Position numbers and translations under genes: made by a program
Assembly: GCA_022340905.1 (NCBI GenBank)
Contig: JAJDNB010000250.1
Coordinates: forward strand, 1 to 59,424
DNA: 59,424 nucleotides
Origin: Deltaproteobacteria bacterium
Lineage (GTDB): Bacteria; Desulfobacterota; Syntrophobacteria; BM002
Reading direction: 5' to 3'
Shown: piece by piece, positions 39,651 through 59,424 of the stretch
Layout: each line of letters begins with the position of its first letter
Position numbering within the stretch: position 1 is the stretch's first letter
Notes under the pieces: model-generated
Seen by the model: the letters and a program-made list of their open reading frames with translations, nothing else
What the model was told of the DNA's origin: nothing
Databases searched by the model: none

Positions 39651-41591
39651 CTACTTCTTTTCCTTTATGTCCTCAGGTGGCCGCTCGATAACCGGAGCTA
39701 GCTCCGGCGGCGAAACTTTAAATACCGCATCATATTCCGGAGGGCATGCCACCCTGCATTCTCCACATTTGACACAAAGCTCTTGGTCTATGGCTTTTTT
39801 CCTTCCCTTGGTAGTGAAAATGGCATCCACTGGACAGCAGCCAACACATACTTCACATCCTCTGGCGCATTTTTCCAGATCGATGTAGAAAGCGGTAAGA
39901 GCTCTACACTTTAAAGCCGGACATCTCTTCTCATTGATGTGCGCTTCGTATTCTTCTCGAAAATATTTGAGAGAGGTTAGCACTGGATTGGGAGCAGTTT
40001 TACCCAGTCCACATAGGGAGCCATCTTTGATATCCTTGCTTAATGTCTCTAGCAGTTCGAGATCTCCGTCCCGACCTTCTCCTTTGGTGATACGTTGCAG
40101 GATGTTGAGAAGGTGTTTAGTCCCCATGCGGCAAAAGGTGCATTTGCCGCACGATTCCTTCTGAGTAAAGTCGAGAAAATATCGGGACACGTCCACCATA
40201 CAGCTGTCCTCATCCATCACCACCATGCCGCCAGAACCCATCATTGCCCCTGCTTGGGTGAGGGAATCAAAGTCAATTGGAGTATCGAGAAAGCTAGCAG
40301 GCAAACAACCGCCAGAAGGTCCGCCAATCTGCACTGCTTTGAACTCTTTTTTGTTGGGGATTCCTCCGCAGACATCAAAGATAAGCGTCCGGAGACTCGT
40401 TCCCATGGCAATTTCAACTAGGCCAGGATGTTTGACATTGCCCACCACAGAGAAAATGGCAGTTCCGGGGCTGCGCTCAGTACCGATGGTTCGAAACCAT
40501 TCAGCTCCCCTTACCATGATTGGGGGCACGGCGGATAGGGTTTTGACGTTGTTTACTACCGTCGGACGTCCCCAAAGCCCCTTTTCCACTGGGAAGGGAG
40601 GGCGGTGCTGTGGCATTCCCCGCTTTCCCTCTATGGACTGGATAAGGGCTGTTTCCTCGCCGCAAACGAAAGCCCCGGAACCTTGAAATACAGAGACCTC
40701 GAGACTGAATGATGTGCCGAGAATAGAAGGCCCGAGGAGAGAGAGCTCCTTGGCGCTTTTTATTGCCTTCTGGATGGCCTTTACGGCAAGGGGATATTCC
40801 GCTCTTACATAGACAATGGATTGGTTCGCTCCCACTGCATGGGCACAAATGGCGAGACCTTCCAACAACTGGTGCGGATTACTTTCCAAAATAGTGCGGT
40901 CCATGTAGGCGCCCGGGTCCCCTTCATCACCGTTGCAAATAACAAATTTGCCATCACCTTCGGCAGTTCTTGCAATTCGCCACTTGCGACCAGAAGGAAA
41001 ACCAGCACCCCCTCTGCCCCTGAGGCCCGACTCCTCGATGAGATTAATTACCTCTTCGGGATCAGAATCCAAAGCCTTGACCAAACCAGAGTATCCCCCC
41101 CTGGCAATGTATTGATGAATGTCGTCCGGGTCTATAAGGCCGCAGTGTTCCATGACCAAACGTTGCTCCAGGCTGAAGCGGGGAAAGTCCATTACTGCAG
41201 GAATCAGATCATTTTCTTCCATGGCGCCCAAAACATACTTGAGAACAGGATCTCCTCCTTCCAGGTATGATCTGACCAAAATTCGTGCCCGGTCAGCATT
41301 TATTTGGTAATAACAAATGGGCGGAAATCCCGCAGTGGGATGATCTATGATGACCAGGGGTTCAGCATAGCAGTGGCCGATACAGCCGACGGGGACAATT
41401 CTTGCTGCAATGGACTTTTCAGAAAGGGCTTCTTCGAAGGCCTGTTTGGTCTCGGCTGCTCCAGAGGCCAGACCGCAGGTGGACATGACCAAGAAGATGG
41501 TTGGAATGGATTCTCTCTTTTGCTCCTCCATACGGTGTTTCGATTCCGATTGAATGGGAGCAAAGCGTTTTTTTGCCTTTTGCTCACTCAC
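39651..41591 (-). CDS. NuoF/HydB-type NADH-binding flavoprotein
   Basis: About 646 residues from GTG 41591, which overlaps the NuoE-like stop by 8 bases; the frame is open farther upstream within the nuoE gene. The N-terminal thioredoxin-like 2Fe-2S domain has MSTCGLASGA and VGCIGHCY. The NADH/FMN domain has GRGGAGFPSGRKW and VICNGDEGDPGAYMDRT. A 4Fe-4S site is in SCGKCTFCRMGTKH, and the C-terminal two-cluster ferredoxin has CARGCEVCVGCCPVDAI and CVKCGECRVACPPE. This layout is that of HydB of electron-bifurcating hydrogenases and of NADH-dependent formate dehydrogenases, where it exchanges electrons between NADH and ferredoxin-level clusters. Confidence 0.92.
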   Translation of the reverse strand: MSEQKAKKRFAPIQSESKHRMEEQKRESIPTIFLVMSTCGLASGAAETKQAFEEALSEKSIAARIVPVGCIGHCYAEPLVIIDHPTAGFPPICYYQINADRARILVRSYLEGGDPVLKYVLGAMEENDLIPAVMDFPRFSLEQRLVMEHCGLIDPDDIHQYIARGGYSGLVKALDSDPEEVINLIEESGLRGRGGAGFPSGRKWRIARTAEGDGKFVICNGDEGDPGAYMDRTILESNPHQLLEGLAICAHAVGANQSIVYVRAEYPLAVKAIQKAIKSAKELSLLGPSILGTSFSLEVSVFQGSGAFVCGEETALIQSIEGKRGMPQHRPPFPVEKGLWGRPTVVNNVKTLSAVPPIMVRGAEWFRTIGTERSPGTAIFSVVGNVKHPGLVEIAMGTSLRTLIFDVCGGIPNKKEFKAVQIGGPSGGCLPASFLDTPIDFDSLTQAGAMMGSGGMVVMDEDSCMVDVSRYFLDFTQKESCGKCTFCRMGTKHLLNILQRITKGEGRDGDLELLETLSKDIKDGSLCGLGKTAPNPVLTSLKYFREEYEAHINEKRCPALKCRALTAFYIDLEKCARGCEVCVGCCPVDAIFTTKGRKKAIDQELCVKCGECRVACPPEYDAVFKVSPPELAPVIERPPEDIKEKK

Positions 41592-42135
41592 TCGCTTTAT
41601 CCCTTTCTTCCCGCTCTCGCTCAATCTGGAATTGTAGGAATATACCCTCGACCTTGCTCGGTTGCATATATCCCTGCACATTGTCATTAATCACGGCCAC
41701 GGGTGCCAGGGCACAGCATCCGACACATGCCACTCTTTCGATGCTATATTCGCGGTCGGCAGTAGTCTCTCCGTCCTTTATCCCCAGTTTTCGTTCGAAG
41801 TTTTCCAGAATAATGTCGCCGCCTGCTACGTGGCAGGCAGTACCAAGACAGACCTTTATCTGATTCCTACCCGGGGGGTGGAAGCGAAACTGATTGTAAA
41901 AGGTGGCGACTCCATAAACTTCGCTGGGGGAGATGTCTAGATGACTTGCCACCATCTCCATAGCAGCAGAGGCAAGATAAGAATGTTTCTCTTGAATAGA
42001 CTGGAGGATAGGAATGAGGTTTCCCCTGTGTTTTTTGAACTTGGACAGCGAACGTTTAATCTCTTGGATCATTGCTCGTTCTTCTTGGTCCAAGTCGGAA
42101 GCTGTCATATCTATTCCATCGTTGTGAAACGCCAC
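41584..42135 (-). CDS. NuoE/HydC-type 2Fe-2S subunit
   Basis: 183 residues from GTG 42135; ATG 42108 is also possible. The thioredoxin-like fold has the four cluster cysteines in CLGTACHVAGG and VACVGCCALAPV. The preceding SEVYGVATFYNQFRF is a strong family mark. First gene of a three-gene unit nuoE-nuoF-nuoG-like on the minus strand. It forms the diaphorase with the NuoF-like protein. Confidence 0.92.
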   Translation of the reverse strand: MAFHNDGIDMTASDLDQEERAMIQEIKRSLSKFKKHRGNLIPILQSIQEKHSYLASAAMEMVASHLDISPSEVYGVATFYNQFRFHPPGRNQIKVCLGTACHVAGGDIILENFERKLGIKDGETTADREYSIERVACVGCCALAPVAVINDNVQGYMQPSKVEGIFLQFQIEREREERDKASE

Positions 42136-50518: not shown

Positions 50519-51448
50519 TCAGTTTAAATTTTGGAGACTCTTGAAGGTGTTTTCCAGAGTCCCTACTGTATCAGTTGTAAGCACCTCTGCCCGGCGGTGA
50601 ATCCATCGCACCGACCGACTAAGCACCTGGCCGGGTCCGATTTCAATCATAGGTGCCAAATTCTGTCGGGCCAATTCCTCTACTACTCCTACCCACTGAA
50701 CCTTACTTCGAAGCTGAATAGAGAGCAACTCCGCCACCTGAGATGCTTTCATTAACGGTTTTTGATCGATATAAGAGAGGATGGGAGTGTGAGGATCATT
50801 CATGGGAATTGTGGCAATCTTTTTGGCCAGACAGTGATCGGCTGCGGTAAGGAGGCTACAGTGATAGGGAGCCGCCGCAGGGAGTCGGTAAGCCTTTAGG
50901 GCTTCTGAGTCTTTTGCAGCCCGTAACAGCTCATCTACTGCCTCCCGCTCCCCGGAGACGATGATTTGATGTCGAGTGTTTACAATACTGACTTCAACCC
51001 TCCCCTCCACCTTTTCGCACATCTCCTCCACCTCCGCCAGTGAGAGGCCGAGCACCACCCCCATACCACCCTGGCAGTTGGCCTCTCTGATACAACGGTC
51101 GGCTTCCACTATGAGGTTGAGACCAGTTTCGAAGTCCACTGCCCCGCCTCCGTAAGCGGCCCCATATATGCCAGAGCTATAGGGTGCGAGCATTGCTGCC
51201 TTTATGGATTTACTTGCCATGAGATCGGCCACCATACAGCTTACGGTATAGACTGCCAGTTGGGCATTGAGATCTTCATGGAGTCGTTGCTCTGGTCCGG
51301 AAAACAAGATCTCTCCGAGGGAAAATTCAAGGTAGGATTCGGCTCGCTCGAGCAAATCTTTGCTCTCAGCGAACCTTTCTACGAGGTCACGACCCATGCC
51401 TACATATTGGGCACCCTGACCTGGAAACAAGAAGGAGCAACCTTTCAT
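50519..51448 (-). CDS. FabD-like acyltransferase with altered active site
   Basis: 309 residues, the FabD length. The start CSFLFPGQGAQYVGMGRDL, AAPYHCSLL (active-site histidine) and EIGPGQVLSRSV are typical. The nucleophile elbow, GHSLGE in malonyl-CoA:ACP transacylases, reads PYSSGI here: the serine is kept but the histidine and glutamate are replaced. The arginine that binds the malonyl carboxylate (LVxxRG) seems replaced by aspartate (LIVEADR). It may therefore transfer a non-carboxylated acyl group. It overlaps lolA by 4 bases and is 15 bp from the protease-propeller gene, so it belongs to an envelope operon and not to a fatty acid synthesis operon. Confidence 0.8.
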   Translation of the reverse strand: MKGCSFLFPGQGAQYVGMGRDLVERFAESKDLLERAESYLEFSLGEILFSGPEQRLHEDLNAQLAVYTVSCMVADLMASKSIKAAMLAPYSSGIYGAAYGGGAVDFETGLNLIVEADRCIREANCQGGMGVVLGLSLAEVEEMCEKVEGRVEVSIVNTRHQIIVSGEREAVDELLRAAKDSEALKAYRLPAAAPYHCSLLTAADHCLAKKIATIPMNDPHTPILSYIDQKPLMKASQVAELLSIQLRSKVQWVGVVEELARQNLAPMIEIGPGQVLSRSVRWIHRRAEVLTTDTVGTLENTFKSLQNLN

Positions 51449-52152
51449 GGCCGTCTCCCGGACTGATAGCTCTCGACCTTAAAACCTTCCGGCGGTTCAA
51501 CGCTAAATAGGCCACGTGAAAGGTTGGCATTTTCTATCAAGTTGGACAGGTAAATTAGGGTCCAGTCACCGTTGCCCTCTAAAATGGCAATTTCATTTGG
51601 CAGCCAGGTTTTCGGATCTATCTTGACTTCCAGCCGTTGGAAATAGCGCGAGTGAGTGGTAGTTTTCGGTTCCATGTTCATTTGTATCCAGCTGCTCCCT
51701 CCACCTCGAGCGACCAGTCGGATTTTTATGGCATACTGGCGCTGAAAGGTTTGCGGATCATCGGTCGCGCCCATGATTCGACCCAAAAGGTCCACCCCGG
51801 TTGGTCCGCGGTACAGGGTTGCCTTCTTGAGGTCTGGGTAAAGCAGAAGAATTTGGTCTTCATTCACCACTAGGGTTAGAGGGTCAGGTTGAATCACCTC
51901 CCAACGGAATCGCCCTGGTGGCAGCCAAAACAGCTCGCCTTTCGAGTCTATAGGTGTTACTAGAAGCCGAGAGTATTTTCGTTGTTCAAAAGAACCTTTG
52001 AGACTTTTCAGGGTCTTGGCTTTTGACTGGAGCTGCTCCAGAACTTCCGGTGCTGTCACCTGAGTTCCAGCCACTGAGACTTGAGAGCTAAGGGCAGCCA
52101 TACCACCGAGAATGAGTCCTAAATAAAGCAGGAGTTTCGGAGATTTGGTCAT
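51445..52152 (-). CDS. LolA-like outer membrane lipoprotein carrier
   Basis: 235 residues from ATG 52152; the frame is open farther upstream through a GGATTGTGGATTGCGG-type repeat. Signal peptide SPKLLLYLGLILGGMAALSS. The mature part has the LolA pattern LKSLKGSFEQRKYSRLLVTP, SKGELFWLPPGRFRWEVIQP, LVVNEDQILLLYP and a C-terminal LIYLSNLIENANL. It should carry lipidated proteins or other lipids through the periplasm. Being inside an acyltransferase cluster, it is more likely a dedicated carrier, as in aryl polyene clusters, than the housekeeping LolA. Confidence 0.85.
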   Translation of the reverse strand: MTKSPKLLLYLGLILGGMAALSSQVSVAGTQVTAPEVLEQLQSKAKTLKSLKGSFEQRKYSRLLVTPIDSKGELFWLPPGRFRWEVIQPDPLTLVVNEDQILLLYPDLKKATLYRGPTGVDLLGRIMGATDDPQTFQRQYAIKIRLVARGGGSSWIQMNMEPKTTTHSRYFQRLEVKIDPKTWLPNEIAILEGNGDWTLIYLSNLIENANLSRGLFSVEPPEGFKVESYQSGRRP

Positions 52153-52196
52153 TTTCAATCCACAATCCGCAATCCACAATCCGCAATCCGAAACCC
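52153..52196. repeat. Tandem degenerate repeat (CAATCC[AG]CAATCC)
   Basis: TTTCAATCCACAATCCGCAA followed by TCCACAATCCGCAATCCGAA, four or five 7- to 8-base units, directly upstream of the LolA-like start and overlapping the end of the acyltransferase gene. Confidence 0.6.
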
Positions 52197-53078
52197 TCAC
52201 AAAGGATCAACGATATACCACTGGTCCGGAAAACGGCGGATGTATTTTTCGAAAACCTCAGCCACTTGTCGCAGGTTATATTGCAATGCCTCTTTGCGAT
52301 TCGGGCCATATTTTAATTTCAAGGGGGATTCGACGATACCACGATAGCGTCCGGGAGCCACCATAACCGAAAAGGCCGGAACAATCGGTGCCCGAGCTGC
52401 CATGGCCAGCAGTACCGGACCCACGGGAAGCTGCACCGGACGATTAAAAAAAATAGTAGACTCGGATCTATCGGCAGCAAGAACCCTGTCACCCAAAACA
52501 GCCACGACCTCATTTCGATTCAGAGCCTTGATCAATTCAATAGCGCCATAGGCTGACTCCTCCACTTCAATGACCCGTATACCATGACGCCTGCGCATTG
52601 CATTAATCAAAGCATTGGTGAATGTAGTGTTGTGCTTTAAGGCTACCACGTTGACCGGATAGCCCATGGCCCGGAGCCCTAGACCTCCAATCTCCCAATG
52701 GCCGAGATGAGCAGTAAGGAGGACCGCCCCCTGCCCTCTTGCCAGGGCTTCATCGATATGCTGGCGACCCTGATAAAGACCAGCGAATGCCTGGCAATCT
52801 TCCAAGGTCATGCTCAGCAGACGAAAGAAATCGGCAACGTAGATTCCGTAGTTCTGGAAGAATCTCCACAGGAGCAACTTTCTACTAGCAGGGAGATTGC
52901 AGCCCTCAAAGATACGGTCGAAGTTGTGGGAGACATGCCGCCGATCCTGCGGTGAAAAGAGGTAAGCAAGTCCGGCAACGCATCTTGCTAGAGTATAGGT
53001 AACCGTCGGAGGCAGTGAGCGAACCGTTCTCAGAGCCTGCCTATACCAAAATGGTTTATCAAGAAAATGTTCACGCAT
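52197..53078 (-). CDS. LpxL/HtrB-type lysophospholipid acyltransferase
   Basis: About 293 residues from ATG 53078; ATG 53108 is an alternative. The family HxxxxE active site is in LLTAHLGHWEIGG (about residue 127). Further marks are VVALKHNTTFTNALI, LGDRVLAADRSESTIFF and PIVPAFSVMVAPGRYRG. Classic members add the secondary acyl chains to lipid A at the inner membrane; paralogues occur in aryl polyene and related lipid clusters. First gene of the minus-strand unit acyltransferase - lolA - fabD-like - protease/propeller - barrel. Confidence 0.88.
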   Translation of the reverse strand: MREHFLDKPFWYRQALRTVRSLPPTVTYTLARCVAGLAYLFSPQDRRHVSHNFDRIFEGCNLPASRKLLLWRFFQNYGIYVADFFRLLSMTLEDCQAFAGLYQGRQHIDEALARGQGAVLLTAHLGHWEIGGLGLRAMGYPVNVVALKHNTTFTNALINAMRRRHGIRVIEVEESAYGAIELIKALNRNEVVAVLGDRVLAADRSESTIFFNRPVQLPVGPVLLAMAARAPIVPAFSVMVAPGRYRGIVESPLKLKYGPNRKEALQYNLRQVAEVFEKYIRRFPDQWYIVDPL

Positions 53079-53152
53079 GACCTTTAACCATCTCCCTTGA
53101 TAGTGCAAACTATTTTCGCTGTCAACAGAGCTCTCTTTGTAAACTGGAATAC

Positions 53153-53301: not shown

Positions 53302-53371
53302 TGACTCTTTCTTGACTTAATGAATGCAACTATGATACCGAGGCTTACTATTTCTATGCTGGAATGTGAAA

Positions 53372-54691
53372 ATGTCATTGAAGATATTGTTGATCTCACC
53401 CATAGGATTAAAGAAGATTTTGGGAGCGGACTTCTTCTTTAAACTGCCATTTTTGGGACTACCTACCGTTGCTGCCCATACGCCGCCGGACTGCGAAGTC
53501 AAAATGGTGGACGAGCGGATCAGGCCGGTGGATTTCGATGCCGATGCCGATTTAATCGGGATCTCGGTAATGACTCCCCTTGCCACCAGGGCTTATGAGA
53601 TAGCAGATGAATTTAAACGGCGCGGGAAGACTGTGGTCATGGGGGGCATGCATGTCTCTGCTTTGCCAGAAGAAGCTCTGGAGCATTGCGATGCCGTGGC
53701 CGTCGGAGAAGGTGAAAAAGTTTGGCCCCAGATGGTGGAAGACTTCAAGCGCGGAGAACTGAAGGAGATCTACCAAGCCAATCAACTGATAGATCTGGCT
53801 GAGGCGCTACCTCCTCGCTGGGACATTATCGACAAAAATATGTATAGTCCCGTGGACTTTATTGAAACTACGAGGGGATGTCCGATCAATTGCAATTTCT
53901 GTGCGGTCACTCAATTCTACGGGGCCAAATACCGCACGAAACCCGTCCATCTTGTTGAGGAGATGGTGGCGAAAGTTAAGCCGGTGGATAAGTTTTTCGC
54001 CCTCAAGAACCTAATATTCTTCGTTGATGACAATATTGTTGCCAATCGGAAACACTGCATGGAGCTGTTGAACATGCTGAAGTCCTATAATATACAGTGG
54101 CTTGGCCAGGCTTCTGTGTCGGTTGCAAAGGATGATGAACTCCTAAAGCTAATGTCCGAAACCAGATGCCTCGGGCTATTGATAGGCATGGAGAGCCTTT
54201 CTGAGGATACTTTGGCTGAATGTGGGAAACGGATAAATAAACCAGCCGAATATCTGGAGGCCGTGAACACGTTGCACCGTTATGGCATAGGGGTAAAGGC
54301 CACATTCATGATCGGCTTTGACAACGATGATATCTCGGTATTTCCCAAAATGGCCAGATTCATTACCAGATCCAACTTTGACAGTGTGTATTTCAGCATT
54401 CTCACGCCCTACCCGGGCACCCGGCTTTTTAAGAGGATGGAAAGCGAGGGCAGGTTGCTACATAAGGTTTGGGAAAAGTACGATACTGCTCATGTTGTCT
54501 TTCGTCCCAGAAAAATGACTGTAGAGCAGCTCGAAGAGGGATTTACTTGGCTTTACAAGAAAGCCCTTTCAATGAAATCGATAGCATTGCGTCTTGCCCG
54601 AGGCAGAACAAATCCTCAGTTCTTCCTTCCCGACAATCTGGCCTTTAGATCGTGTTTATTCAGAATGCTGCGAGGAAGTAAGAAAGATTGA
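53372..54691 (+). CDS. B12-binding-domain radical SAM protein
   Basis: 439 residues from ATG 53372. The N-terminal part (about 1-140) is a cobalamin-binding-like domain with LIGISVMTPLATRAYEIADE and GGMHVSALPEEALEHCDAVA; the usual DxHxxG histidine is not clearly present. The radical SAM motif is RGCPINCNFCAVTQFYG (CxxxCxxC, about 169-176). The C-terminal half has GMESLSEDTLAECGKRI and FMIGFDNDDISVF. Relatives methylate or rearrange lipids, hopanoids or natural products. First gene of a plus-strand group of envelope-type genes. Confidence 0.87.
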   Translation: MSLKILLISPIGLKKILGADFFFKLPFLGLPTVAAHTPPDCEVKMVDERIRPVDFDADADLIGISVMTPLATRAYEIADEFKRRGKTVVMGGMHVSALPEEALEHCDAVAVGEGEKVWPQMVEDFKRGELKEIYQANQLIDLAEALPPRWDIIDKNMYSPVDFIETTRGCPINCNFCAVTQFYGAKYRTKPVHLVEEMVAKVKPVDKFFALKNLIFFVDDNIVANRKHCMELLNMLKSYNIQWLGQASVSVAKDDELLKLMSETRCLGLLIGMESLSEDTLAECGKRINKPAEYLEAVNTLHRYGIGVKATFMIGFDNDDISVFPKMARFITRSNFDSVYFSILTPYPGTRLFKRMESEGRLLHKVWEKYDTAHVVFRPRKMTVEQLEEGFTWLYKKALSMKSIALRLARGRTNPQFFLPDNLAFRSCLFRMLRGSKKD

Positions 54692-54781: not shown

Positions 54782-55417
54782 ATGTGCTCATTGGACGGTT
54801 CGCGCTCAATATTCATCTTGACTCTACTGGTCTTGACTTTGCATGGCTGTGCTACCCCTCCACCTGTTCCAAAAAGACTTGAGTTTCTCAACTATCAAGG
54901 ACAGGTAAATGAACACCATGTTATTATACAGGCTCCACCTTCTCACGTTTTTGACGTGCTCACCGATTATGACCGGTTCCTGACCTTGATACCCTCCGAT
55001 CGAGTTCGACTCAAAAAAATGACCCCCGGTCCCTACCATGTTGGCACCACCATTCGAGCCGTAACCGTCTTCAAAATAAAGCTCAGCTGGGAGTCACGGG
55101 TAGTGGAAATACAGAAGGATCGTTCTTTGGTACTTCAGTTCCAGAGTGGACCCTTCCGGGGGGGCTACGAGGTTTGGCAGCTCGAAGCCGCAGGAAGCTG
55201 CACCAGAGTGAGCCATACCCTGATTTACAATATTTCCAATTTCTTTTATCGATTGGTCTGGCTAATGAAGCGGGGAGAGAAAAAACACAACACCCTGACG
55301 GATGTTACCTTGCTGAATCTAAAACGGGAATGCGAAGAAGGACTTTTGCCCCCTTTTATGGGGGGACCGCGAGAAGAGGAGAGCTGTGACATTCTGCCAT
55401 CTTTGCCGAGGAAGTGA
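54782..55417 (+). CDS. SRPBCC-domain lipoprotein
   Basis: 211 residues. Signal peptide II: FILTLLVLTLHGC, lipobox LHGC at about 20-23. A START/polyketide-cyclase-like domain (about 44-185) begins EHHVIIQAPPSHVFDVLTDY, with SWESRVVEIQ and LVLQFQSGPFRGGYEVW strands and the long C-terminal helix. A ligand-binding fold fixed to a membrane by lipid suggests handling of a hydrophobic compound in the periplasm. The last 32 bases overlap the methyltransferase gene, so the products are made together. Confidence 0.78.
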   Translation: MCSLDGSRSIFILTLLVLTLHGCATPPPVPKRLEFLNYQGQVNEHHVIIQAPPSHVFDVLTDYDRFLTLIPSDRVRLKKMTPGPYHVGTTIRAVTVFKIKLSWESRVVEIQKDRSLVLQFQSGPFRGGYEVWQLEAAGSCTRVSHTLIYNISNFFYRLVWLMKRGEKKHNTLTDVTLLNLKRECEEGLLPPFMGGPREEESCDILPSLPRK

Positions 55418-56213
55418 ATTAAGACCATTTGTGCGTGAGGGTGAGTGGCAATATCTGCGCTGTCTCAACTGCGGTCTCATCTTCCTTGAGCCGCAACCCT
55501 CGAAGGAATTCCTCCGCAGCCATTATCAAGACTACCTGCCTGCCGATCCCCAAGAGATCGAAAACTGGCGTACTATGATGACCCAGGTTTTCACCAAGAG
55601 CGCCAACCTCATCCAGGATGTGATCCCTATTCCGGGACGCTTACTAGACGTAGGCTGCGGCTATGGTTTTTTCTTGCAAGAGATGGCTCGGCGGAACTGG
55701 CAGGCGGATGGAATTGAAATCTCGGCCACCGGGAGAGTTTACGCTCGAGATAAATTAGGATTGAATGTGTCGGACAGACCCCTGCCACGACCCGAGTGGC
55801 AAGATAATTGCTACGACGTGGTCACACTCTTTTATGTGATAGAACATTTACAAGATCCCAAGAGTTTGCTGGGGGAAGTTCGTCGTCTTCTTGGGACCGG
55901 TGGCTTGCTGCTGCTGAGGTGGCCGCACACAGCCCCTATTGCCACAATGTTTAAGCCCTGGGTATCGAGAATGAAACTGTATCAGGCCCCTTCTCATTTG
56001 TTTGACTTTTCACCATCGACTATATATAAAATCCTTGATCAACTTGACTTTCGAGAGATTCGCACCACGATCTGTGGATGGACCAAGCCAAACAGAAAGG
56101 GTGAGCACCTAGCCGCGTGGTTCTTTGGTAGTTTAGGCGAGCAATTGGCCAGAGTAACCCGTGATCGTCTGCTCTTGCCTGGGGTGAGCAAGACTACTTT
56201 AGCCCGACGCTGA
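55386..56213 (+). CDS. Class I SAM methyltransferase with N-terminal zinc ribbon
   Basis: 275 residues from GTG 55386, with GAGGAG upstream inside the preceding gene. Residues 4-40 hold two CxxC pairs (CHLC and CLNC) with GLIFLEPQPS, a zinc ribbon common in sugar and lipid O-methyltransferases of surface polysaccharide clusters. The methyltransferase motif I is LLDVGCGYGFFLQEM (about 81-95) and motif IV DVVTLFYVIEHLQDP. The end of the protein resembles the membrane-associated tail of this family. Confidence 0.82.
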   Translation: MTFCHLCRGSELRPFVREGEWQYLRCLNCGLIFLEPQPSKEFLRSHYQDYLPADPQEIENWRTMMTQVFTKSANLIQDVIPIPGRLLDVGCGYGFFLQEMARRNWQADGIEISATGRVYARDKLGLNVSDRPLPRPEWQDNCYDVVTLFYVIEHLQDPKSLLGEVRRLLGTGGLLLLRWPHTAPIATMFKPWVSRMKLYQAPSHLFDFSPSTIYKILDQLDFREIRTTICGWTKPNRKGEHLAAWFFGSLGEQLARVTRDRLLLPGVSKTTLARR

Positions 56214-56692: not shown

Positions 56693-56788
56693 ATTTGCTT
56701 CTCTGTTATTAGCTGTCTATGGGGTCTCTTCCTCATATCGGCGGCAAGAGCAGTGAGCGACGGTCAACCAAAAAGTTCTGAGGTAGTC

Positions 56789-57139
56789 GTGTATAAAACT
56801 TCCATGATCGCCATGGTGTGTTGTGCTGCTCTTTTGATTTTGTCGGGTTGTACTAGCGACACGGGTATTGTGCGGCTCTACACGGAACCGTCAGGGGCAA
56901 AATACTATATTGATGGTATTGAGAAGGGGGTAACCCCGGCCGAGTTCGAATGGGACATGGATCAGACCATCTTGCTTGAGATCAAGAAAGAAGGCTACTA
57001 CCCTGAAAAGGAACTAATGGACAAAGCCTGGTTGAAATACCAGTTCAATAGAGGCAACGTTGGCAAGATCCAAGTCGGGAAGGTGACGAACCAATTGACT
57101 CTAACCATCAACCGCCAGTTGAAAGCCGAACCTCAATGA
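56789..57139 (+). CDS. PEGA-domain lipoprotein
   Basis: 116 residues from GTG 56789 with GAGG upstream; GTG 56753 and ATG 56804 are in frame. Lipobox LSGC after a hydrophobic segment (MIAMVCCAALLILSGC). The mature part is a single PEGA domain: LYTEPSGAKYYIDGIEKGVT, then EIKKEGYYPEKE. Such domains are surface or periplasmic beta modules that may bind glycans. No partner is evident. Confidence 0.75.
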   Translation: MYKTSMIAMVCCAALLILSGCTSDTGIVRLYTEPSGAKYYIDGIEKGVTPAEFEWDMDQTILLEIKKEGYYPEKELMDKAWLKYQFNRGNVGKIQVGKVTNQLTLTINRQLKAEPQ

Positions 57140-57193: not shown

Positions 57194-59424
57194 ATGAATG
57201 ATCCGGAGCGAGAGCAGTTGACGACCCACTCATCATTGCATCCACACAAGGGGAACGATTTTACCGGATATGGGGCTGCCGCGCAGCAATCTGCGGCTGA
57301 TGCTCCGGTAGTTGGCATACCCCGCGGTCTTCTCTATTTCAGGTACCAACCCTTATGGGCTACCTTTTTCTCCCACCTGGGTGTCAAGATTAGAGTATCA
57401 CAGCCCACCGAGCGATCCAGTTTCGACACCGCTCAGAGCCTCACTCGCAGCGATCTTTGCCTTCCCGTTAAAGTCTTTCTCGAGCATGTTTCCAGATTAA
57501 AAGATACGGTGGACTTTCTCCTGCTTCCAAGGGTCATCAGCGTGAGTCCCGATGCTTACATGTGCCCCAAGATCCTGGGATTGACCGACATTGTTCGCAA
57601 TGTTTTTGCCGATCTACCTTCGCTTCTAACCCCAAGGGTAAACGCCAAGCTTCCGAAACCCGAAGGATTTGCCGAGGCATGTTTAGAGGTGGGTCACCGT
57701 TTTAGTAGCAGTACGTCACAAGTGGAAATTGCCTGGCAGGCTGCTTGCAGAGCTCAAGGGAAGTTCGAACAAAGGCTGCTGAGATATCCTCTGGACGAGG
57801 CGTTGAAACCATGGGATCGAGCCTTTGCACCAAAAAACGGTAATGCCGAAATTTCGCCTCGATACCGCGTAGCAGTAATTGGCCGGCCCTACATCTCCTT
57901 TGATAGAGCCCTGAGTCATGACCTGCTGCATTTGCTCAAACGGTACGCTGTTGAGATTGTTACCCCAGAGTCAGTACCCGAGAAAATCATAGCCAGAGAG
58001 AGTGAGAGACTGTCAAAGAAAGTTTACTGGGAATTGGGAAGAGAACTGGTGGCCGCCGCTTTGCACTACATGAAGGACCCAGAGGTGGATGGCATCATCA
58101 ATGTTTCCAGCTTTGGCTGTGGCCAAGATTCCTTCACCAACGCTCTGGTGGAATATTTCGTCACCAAACACTCGAACAAGCCCATGCTCAGCTTGGTCAT
58201 GGATGAGCACACCGCCGATGGTGGGTTAAACACCAGAGTAGAAGCTTTTCTGGACATGGTGGAGCAGCGAAAAAAGAATGGTACCGTGCGCTTGAGTGAA
58301 CGGGGCAAGGTGCAAGGGACGTCTTGTGTTGGTGATCCTGCAACAAGACCCAAGTCCGCGAAAATGCATCTCACCATTCCACACATGGGACATCTCCACA
58401 TAGGTTTCGAGCAAGTGTTCAAAAATCTCGGTGTCCATATTACAATGCCACCCCGTCCCAATAAAGAAGCTTTGATGCTGGGTACGCGCTATTCACCGGA
58501 ATGTTCCTGCCTGCCCTTTAAAATGAATTTGGGCAATATGATCCAAGCACTGAATCAAGGCGCCACCGATATTATGATGCCTGGCGGTTTTGGCCCCTGT
58601 CGCTTTGGCTACTACAGCGTAATCCAGGAACAAATCCTAAGAGATCTGGGTTACGAGTTCAGGATGGGCCGTGCGGATGATCCGGACAGTCTTCGTGACA
58701 TGTTGGACATGGTCAAGAGAATCGCCGGGCTCAACACCAAGTGGGATTCATACAAAGTTTTCTTCTTCATTCTCCATCGTCTCGCCCTAGTGGACTGGGC
58801 CTTACGTCGTGCCCACTGGTTGCGGCCGAGGGAGGTCAACAGACGTTCCACTGACCGGGCACTGCGTCGCTGCCTTCAAATCATAGATGAAACAGGCAGA
58901 TTCCGTGACTTGTGGTTGGCTAAACGAAAGGTCCGGCAGATACTGAGCAACGTGGCCTGCGAACCTGAACGGCCTACTCTCAGAGTGGGAATCGTAGGTG
59001 AGATATTTATGGTACTGGAGCACTATGCCAACATGAACGTGGAGGAACGGCTAGGCGAGATGGGAGTTGAGGTGCACCGCGGCGTTTGGCTTAGTGACTG
59101 GTTAAATGACCGTTATCGGTTCAAACTTTTCCGGCGTAACCAGTTCCAGTGGTCCCTCCGGCAGGCCAGACCATACCTGTGTGAACCCAGCGGTGGTGAA
59201 AGTGTGAAATCGGTGGGGAAAACAGTGGCCTTTGCCAAAAGGGGATTTGACGGTGTCGTGCACCTCATGCCCTTTACCTGCATGCCTGAGCTGGTAGCTC
59301 AGACGATCTTGGCTAAAGTTTCTCGTGACTATAATATCCCAGTGCTCACCCTGATCTTCGATGAGCATACTTCACCCGGTGGAGTGCAAACTCGGTTGGA
59401 GGCCTTCGTAGATCTTCTTAACCG
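57194..59424 (+). CDS. COG3580-COG3581 fusion, acyl-CoA dehydratase/activase-related, 5' part
   Basis: Open frame of 743 codons with no stop before the window ends; start ATG 57194 (or 57206-type internal starts are unlikely). The N-terminal module (about 40-375) is DUF2229/COG3580: VVGIPRGLLYFRYQPLWATF, CLPVKVFLEHV, YMCPKILG, SFGCGQDSFTN and MDEHTADGGLNTRVEAF. The second module (about 390-743) is COG3581-like: PHMGHLHIGFEQVFKNLG, SPECSCLPFKMNLGNMIQAL, GGFGPCRFGYYSV and FDEHTSPGGVQTRLEAF. In both families the cysteines are thought to hold an iron-sulfur cluster as in 2-hydroxyacyl-CoA dehydratases. The two are often separate genes or joined behind a BadF-type ATPase; here the ATPase is not in front. 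Confidence 0.85.
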   Translation, partial: MNDPEREQLTTHSSLHPHKGNDFTGYGAAAQQSAADAPVVGIPRGLLYFRYQPLWATFFSHLGVKIRVSQPTERSSFDTAQSLTRSDLCLPVKVFLEHVSRLKDTVDFLLLPRVISVSPDAYMCPKILGLTDIVRNVFADLPSLLTPRVNAKLPKPEGFAEACLEVGHRFSSSTSQVEIAWQAACRAQGKFEQRLLRYPLDEALKPWDRAFAPKNGNAEISPRYRVAVIGRPYISFDRALSHDLLHLLKRYAVEIVTPESVPEKIIARESERLSKKVYWELGRELVAAALHYMKDPEVDGIINVSSFGCGQDSFTNALVEYFVTKHSNKPMLSLVMDEHTADGGLNTRVEAFLDMVEQRKKNGTVRLSERGKVQGTSCVGDPATRPKSAKMHLTIPHMGHLHIGFEQVFKNLGVHITMPPRPNKEALMLGTRYSPECSCLPFKMNLGNMIQALNQGATDIMMPGGFGPCRFGYYSVIQEQILRDLGYEFRMGRADDPDSLRDMLDMVKRIAGLNTKWDSYKVFFFILHRLALVDWALRRAHWLRPREVNRRSTDRALRRCLQIIDETGRFRDLWLAKRKVRQILSNVACEPERPTLRVGIVGEIFMVLEHYANMNVEERLGEMGVEVHRGVWLSDWLNDRYRFKLFRRNQFQWSLRQARPYLCEPSGGESVKSVGKTVAFAKRGFDGVVHLMPFTCMPELVAQTILAKVSRDYNIPVLTLIFDEHTSPGGVQTRLEAFVDLLN

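Follow-up and report, generated by a model that had tools for sequence, protein, structure and literature searches.

A fused two-module DUF2229-type protein with a convergent activase, found within an exported-lipid-type gene cluster in a deltaproteobacterium, is a candidate radical enzyme of lipid tailoring

The 2-hydroxyacyl-CoA dehydratases (HAD) and benzoyl-CoA reductases (BCR) take a low-potential electron from an activase in an ATP-driven step and form a ketyl radical on their thioester substrate. For proteins of the DUF2229 type we know of no proven reaction, in agreement with an earlier note (the first-pass annotation) on the DNA studied here. According to the available text of PMC11971306, the catalytic subunit BzdO holds a [4Fe-4S] cluster on cysteines 95, 128 and 380, and BzdN and the double-cubane cluster protein (DCCP) hold a double cubane on six cysteines. 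Our subject is a gene that joins two modules, M1 and M2, in one frame at the end of a 59,424-nt stretch of a Deltaproteobacteria bacterium (assembly GCA_022340905.1, contig JAJDNB010000250.1, positions 1 to 59,424 of the forward strand; "the window"). We propose that the fusion is an activase-driven, HAD/BCR-type single-electron enzyme that tailors an acyl thioester in an exported ladderane/aryl-polyene-like lipid pathway, and give this reading a probability of about 0.6.

The reading frame (57194..59422, + strand) encodes 743 amino acids without a stop and is open to the window end (59424), which is also the end of contig C142 in a draft genome of 4.10 Mb (278 contigs, 94% complete). In Pfam searches the protein matched DUF2229 (PF09989) at 173 bits against a cut-off of 29.4, which places it in that family, and HGD-D (PF06050) at 53.9 bits against 28.4, each in two stretches, with the best HGD-D stretch covering the C-terminal part of the model only. 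Each module ends in a motif (DEHTADGGLNTRVEAF and DEHTSPGGVQTRLEAF, respectively), and both motifs lie on conserved alignment columns of homologous proteins and are therefore not due to chance; the reading frame, the Pfam matches and these columns thus bear out the first-pass description of one stop-free frame with twin motif ends. The module 1 profile also matches module 2, which suggests that M1 and M2 are homologous halves. In the first-pass annotation they carry the labels COG3580 and COG3581.

For comparison we used 79 loci from GTDB genomes, out of the best 80 of 103 stretches, and counted a locus as fused where a single frame longer than 600 amino acids holds both modules. By this rule 21 of the 79 loci are fused: ten named loci of the window clade (L035-L044) and 11 more distant ones (L055-L064 and L071). 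The same single-frame fusion is present in a less close genome (G044, 67% identity); matches in our other relative genomes are probably to the same genomes as the named loci. A frameshift error joining two separate genes, which the first-pass annotation had itself set beforehand as fatal to its claim, is next to impossible: the gene does sit at a contig end of a draft genome with signs of strain mixture, but the single frame recurs in all of these fused loci, near and distant, and in G044, which rules the artefact out.

The missing 3' end was found on contig C268 of the same genome, which ends with a near-identical allele of the end of the fusion. The overlap (window 59284-59424; 141 bp) is 95% identical in nucleotides and fully identical in protein, which indicates a strain mixture in the assembly, and the C268 allele adds RKKPSFPS and a stop, giving a full protein of about 751 amino acids. 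In a near relative (L035) a single contig matches the last part of the window, starting at about 48.8 kb, and continues with a match to C268, which can therefore be placed directly after the window. The next gene beyond the fusion on C268 encodes an activase of 324 amino acids on the opposite strand, tail-to-tail with the fusion. It scored 203.9 bits with TIGR00241 (cut-off 125.4), as an ASKHA-type ATPase activator does, ranks first among the genome's five PF01869 matches, and aligns with solved structures (1hux, 4eht, 7yyl_E and 9gai_D) over region 5-262. Going past position 59424 thus gave both the C-terminus and a separate activase gene. The earlier observation that no BadF-type ATPase precedes the modules is true of the window's reading frames, but an activase lies directly downstream on the opposite strand, and the idea of a missing activator is rejected.

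This arrangement is conserved. In the window clade the activase is convergent behind the fusion in eight of the ten named loci, with the two stop codons within 8 nt of each other in six of the eight and 46 and about 210 nt apart in the others; at L036 the contig ends 280 bases past the fusion, and at L043 no activase lies behind the fusion, the reading frame there looking by eye like a putative metallo-beta-lactamase-like hydrolase. Among Nitrospirota the activase follows M2 on the same strand (9/9 loci), and over the whole set it is present at 55 of 79 loci. The activase family carries an invariant C-terminal CxxCxNxC...C tail (54/54 rows; for example, L114:13900-14874) beyond the part (5-262) covered by alignments with solved activators, and this four-cysteine tail is a possible second metal site.

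Each module of the fusion keeps three cysteines. Those of M1 (C89, C124 and C309) lie on three columns with cysteine in 96-97% of 80 rows, and those of M2 (C439, C469 and C696) on three columns with cysteine in all of 87 rows (to two decimals), while cysteine is not the most frequent residue, at more than 30% of rows, in any further column of either alignment; in the clade of the window C439 has one more cysteine, C437, beside it. The first and second spacings are 35 and 185 in M1 and 30 and 227 in M2, compared with 33 and 252 in BzdO, which makes the first similar and the second shorter than in BzdO. Judged from these sequences, each module most likely holds one [4Fe-4S] cluster on its three cysteines. 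A double-cubane type was rejected, as the six cluster cysteines of that type are not found and only three cysteines are shared per module.

AlphaFold models were built from within-family alignments for the whole fusion (pLDDT 79.5) and for M2 alone (pLDDT 91.5), the latter because the structural search with the whole model was poor over the middle of the fusion. The M1 part of the whole model aligned with HadB (3o3n_B) at Z 16.5 and a root-mean-square deviation (rmsd) of 4.3 over 283 residues and with BzdO (8s02_B) at Z 16.4, and the M2 model aligned with HadB (3o3n_B) at Z 15.1 and rmsd 4.5 over 307 residues. In both structural searches, that with M1 and that with M2, the first ten rows were members of the HAD/BCR/DCCP superfamily (Z 11.1-16.5), whereas a sequence search of solved structures recognised only the C-terminal stretch. 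On its predicted fold, which resembles those of HadB, BzdO and DCCP, the fusion belongs to this superfamily, and the Pfam matches and predicted folds together agree with the earlier suggestion that the modules are related to 2-hydroxyacyl-CoA dehydratase components. The HadC model (NF052456, 13.9 bits against 700) and the double-cubane reductase model (NF040772, 31.7 bits against 350) were both matched far below their cut-offs, suggesting a superfamily member that is not a known HAD or DCCP. Amino acid fermentation, which the first-pass annotation had also thought not to be indicated, and class I aromatic reduction were rejected as functions, as PF06050 had no match at E<=0.001 outside the fusion gene in this 94%-complete genome.

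The first-pass annotation had said of the neighbours that they do not point to amino acid fermentation. In the wider comparison they are informative: they belong to an exported-lipid cluster like those of type II fatty acid synthases (FAS) and polyketide synthases (PKS). Past the activase, C268 encodes an RND/MMPL exporter, a CsgG-NHL protein, a radical SAM-SPASM protein, a small-export-family protein, an ATP-grasp protein and FabG, and then an acyl carrier protein (ACP), a thioesterase, FabZ, a glycosyltransferase, two ketosynthases (KS-alpha and KS-beta), a B12-radical SAM protein and a polysaccharide deacetylase, some of these genes being assigned through their L035 or L041 homologues. KS-beta is a degenerate second ketosynthase: all six aligned rows carry H, D, E or Q in place of the nucleophile, as in chain-length factors. 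The B12-radical SAM protein (rSAM2) scored 397.7 bits with TIGR04072 (rSAM_ladder_B12; cut-off 360), and its Nitrospirota counterpart in L140 scored 389.2 bits. On the Nitrospirota contig L065/L140, M1, M2, activase, LolA, KS-alpha, KS-beta, two radical SAM genes and rSAM2 form an uninterrupted run; at L051, L052 and L054 (L138, L139) LigB, pirin and MarR genes stand between the activase and LolA or KS, and at L047/L141 the KS genes lie apart. In Desulfobacterota the system stands in a rearranged cluster with genes homologous to those of the Nitrospirota run.

By analogy with the known enzymes, the fusion would be a single-chain pseudo-heterodimer in which M1 stands in for one dehydratase subunit and M2 for the other, and the activase of the convergent gene would pass low-potential electrons singly, in an ATP-driven manner, to the putative clusters, as in HAD. 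A ketyl radical would then probably form on an acyl thioester (ACP- or CoA-bound), perhaps for a dehydration, a reduction or the supply of a starter. The thioester to be expected in a cluster of this type II FAS/PKS-like kind would be an acyl-ACP or a CoA-bound starter. The clade's system may serve as a tailoring enzyme for an exported lipid akin to those of the ladderane or aryl-polyene class. A bolder and more tentative proposal, against which we would sooner bet, is that this is the first HAD/BCR-type ketyl-radical enzyme in lipid or polyketide biosynthesis, that in Desulfobacterota and Nitrospirota it acts on ACP-bound acyl thioesters and, with the B12-radical SAM enzymes, makes a ladderane- or polyene-like lipid of the outer membrane without O2, and that an additional cysteine-ligated metal site of the activase serves as an extra electron relay. 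One DUF2229 clade spanning two phyla is tied to a defined lipid-type cluster. Its reaction thereby becomes testable, and a new chemistry becomes a candidate for the way in which ladderane-like or polyene lipids are made anaerobically; how ladderanes are built is described as still open in the accessible parts of PMC2649909, PMC9821293 and PMC4790861.

The tie to the cluster was examined with five core seeds (two KS, LolA, RND and ACP) and a wider set of 15. At least one core seed lies near 16 of 21 clade loci and near one of 59 others (Fisher p 1.2e-11, a value that overstates the association because the loci are related and unequal in length), and any of the 15 seeds near 18 of 21 and six of 59, respectively. 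Across 59 relative genomes, TIGR04072 was over its cut-off in five of the seven with the fusion (over 1,000 bits) compared with one of the 52 others.

Several observations weigh against our proposal. The TIGR04072 figure is not independent, since four of the five genomes with both belong to one genus; two genomes with the fusion (G001 and G004, each split into more than 300 contigs) have no TIGR04072 match that passes the cut-off, and one of the same phylum (G056) has such a match without the fusion. No core seed was found at five of the 21 clade loci: L043 and L048, which have other cluster genes, and L040 (a 3.3 kb contig), L050 (a 7.7 kb contig) and L053, which have none of the 15 seeds. 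From the eleventh structural row on, single domains of other folds match with Z values up to 10, and superfamily members of solved structure share only 9-15% identity with the modules. Finally, Bacillota and Actinomycetota carry these genes with no lipid cluster of this kind close by (the 59 loci outside the clade, of which one, L092, has LolA-like and LpxL-like neighbours), so that the lipid link may have come about by recruitment or linkage around a more general core chemistry.

Another reading is that the system is a general housekeeping ATP-dependent reductase, for example of small molecules as for DCCP, which one clade inherited next to lipid genes through chance linkage. Its genes are indeed spread over several phyla, with neighbours as varied as SpoVA, GerA and Gpr genes, PyrBI and a cation ATPase. 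On the other hand, some Nitrospirota keep a tight run with LolA-KS-KS-rSAM, and Desulfobacterota have homologous genes in a rearranged cluster; retention across the phylum split and through rearrangement argues for a functional link, and we consider chance linkage decidedly improbable. Two further observations concern these genomes and loci. The TIGR04072 match of G056 (G056:C335:2319-3644, 593 bits) is a closer ladderane-type radical SAM gene. A group of Bacillota loci (L066, L069, L075, L076, L088, L056, L057, L059 and L061) lies near sporulation or germination genes, namely SpoVAC/SpoVAEB family, SpoVAD and germination protease Gpr genes and, in some, GerA (L066 and L056 annotated by Pfam, the others by clustering); such settings show that the genes may have another role in general.

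The main rival to our proposal concerns the neighbouring B12-radical SAM enzymes: M1, M2 and activase might inject ATP-driven, low-potential electrons into another metalloenzyme, for instance to re-reduce cob(II)alamin in these enzymes. B12-radical SAM genes accompany the system in both Desulfobacterota and Nitrospirota, the methanogenesis marker 15 model is matched below its cut-off by the fusion (251-360, E 2.8e-6) and by the activase (E 1e-40), and ATP-dependent corrinoid reduction by other activators is established, for example for corrinoid methyltransferases (PMC6739815). However, those activators are monomeric, and the part of PMC6739815 available mentions no dehydratase-like partner; moreover, a B12-radical SAM seed lies near only one of the 59 loci outside the clade, which makes electron injection unlikely as a general function. 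Overall, we regard this explanation as unlikely.

A different thioester chemistry is conceivable too, in which an (R)-2-hydroxyacyl thioester such as aryllactyl-CoA is dehydrated to a cinnamoyl-type starter, an anaerobic aryl/enoyl starter route that would replace aryl-polyene starter genes. Many E. coli aryl-polyene genes have counterparts in the cluster (PMC8253772, in part), and a search of the genome for ammonia-lyases (family PF00221) gave no match. Nevertheless, no CoA-transferase or hydroxyacid dehydrogenase was noticed among the adjoining annotated reading frames (no dedicated search was made), the HadC match is far below its cut-off, and E. coli itself starts from 4-hydroxybenzoate and not from a lyase product (PMC8253772, same excerpt), so we hold this route to be very unlikely.

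Table 1. Features of the window on and next to the fused gene
Feature	Position	Strand	Remarks
FabD-like acyltransferase (AT, PF00698)	50519..51448	-	
LolA-like carrier	51445..52200	-	assigned via L035 homologue, PF03548
LpxL-like acyltransferase (PF03279)	52197..53108	-	
B12-binding radical SAM protein	53366..54691	+	relatives follow ketosynthase pair in Nitrospirota
Putative lipoprotein (by eye), polyketide cyclase/START-like domain PF03364	54782..55417	+	
SAM-dependent methyltransferase (PF13489)	55386..56213	+	
PEGA-domain putative lipoprotein, just upstream of fusion	56753..57139	+	homologues in L035, L039
Fused HAD/BCR-type protein, modules M1+M2	57194..59424	+	3' end cut by contig end
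Module 1 (DUF2229 type)	57284..58300	+	codons C89 (57458), C124 (57563), C309 (58118)
First motif DEHTADGGLNTRVEAF, aa 337-352	58202..58249	+	
Module 2	58364..59422	+	codons C439 (58508), C469 (58598), C696 (59279)
Second motif DEHTSPGGVQTRLEAF, aa 723-738	59360..59407	+	

The PEGA-domain putative lipoprotein (Table 1) may be part of the system. Elsewhere in the window, at 39651-42135 (- strand), lie genes for a NuoF-like protein, which scores below the NuoF cut-off and has an extended N-terminal region, and for a thioredoxin-like 2Fe-2S protein of NuoE type; the two may form an NADH:ferredoxin-type module.

We also asked how the fused state is distributed on a tree of 72 rows (22 fused, including the window, and 50 split), in which loci without both full modules were left out; an alignment mixing fused and single-module rows had misaligned module ends and was not used. 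At a Dehalococcoidia locus (L073) the frame also seems to be fused but runs off the end of the locus, and the length rule kept it out of the 22. The tree requires two changes for the fused state, and a single origin was rejected by the approximately unbiased (AU) test (p-AU 7.5e-10, on a quick tree with some long branches), which indicates from these sequences that M1 and M2 were fused at least twice. The sister of the window's fusion clade is a split deltaproteobacterial gene (L048), followed by split Nitrospirota genes (SH-aLRT 100); in Nitrospirota and many Bacillota and Actinomycetota, M1 and M2 are separate adjoining genes, often with an activase. Relatives also have larger one-frame proteins that hold both modules (open frames of 1,421 and 1,405 amino acids). 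With several origins and such larger proteins, fusion as such, the subject of the first-pass annotation, is ordinary, and what looks new is the lipid-cluster context. Other arrangements were seen as well: L068, L070 and L092 (and, in part, L093 and L095) have extra modules, with M2, activase, M1, M2 and M1 in a row, this related group adjoining ATP-grasp and polysaccharide deacetylase genes, and a Negativicutes bacterium (L083:4902-9994) has two divergent M1-M2 pairs on opposite strands with one activase.

Compared with HadBC and HgdAB, the system is alike in the fold predicted for M1 and M2, in keeping three cysteines in each of them and in having a TIGR00241-type activator, but differs in its low identity (9-15%), in being one chain where theirs are two, in having biosynthetic rather than fermentative neighbours, and in the four-cysteine tail of its activator. 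The predicted fold (rows 8s02, 9g87 and 6eno) and an ATP-dependent activator are likewise shared with BzdNO/MbdON and DCCP, while BzdN and DCCP have six cluster cysteines in place of the three shared by each module here. Closer by family are the DUF2229/COG3580-COG3581 chains with BadF domains, which also match DUF2229 over the cut-off; the same genome has a BadF-BadF-DUF2229 chain with a separate M2 gene on contig C77. The window chain differs from these in having no ATPase domain, its activase being separate and convergent, and identity is about 24-34% among the matches listed.

In the literature covered, which is partial and mostly titles and the beginnings of abstracts, we recognised no earlier account that places an enzyme of the HAD/BCR type in a cluster for ladderanes, aryl polyenes or any other lipid or polyketide. 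The terms "hydroxyglutaryl" and "benzoyl" are absent from the main text of PMC2649909, and "hydroxyglutaryl", "benzoyl-CoA" and "activase" from PMC4790861, so neither appears to name a HAD-type enzyme; PMC12918008, considered as a possible earlier description, is unrelated as far as its available part goes. Arylpolyenes of anaerobes are made by a type I PKS according to PMC12144888, in whose available text "activase" does not occur. The ladderane and polyunsaturated-hydrocarbon FASII clusters of Kuenenia and Desulfotalea, as described in the accessible parts of PMC2649909 and PMC4790861, resemble the present cluster in having degenerate and normal KS, ACP, FabZ and FabG, and further (PMC2649909, PMC4790861 and PMC9821293, in part) glycosyltransferase, methyltransferase, polysaccharide deacetylase and B12-radical SAM genes. 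They differ in their phytoene-desaturase-like genes and phenylacetyl-CoA ligase; no phytoene-desaturase-like gene was noticed among the annotated reading frames of the window cluster, where no dedicated search was made, and the same holds for an ApeH-type acyl-ACP synthetase. The aryl polyene cluster of E. coli CFT073, in the excerpt of PMC8253772 available, shares methyltransferase, LPLAT acyltransferase, ACP, dehydratase, glycosyltransferase, thioesterase, LolA, RND, KS and KS-chain-length-factor and ketoreductase genes with the window cluster, to which the latter adds its radical SAM genes and the dehydratase-like system described here.

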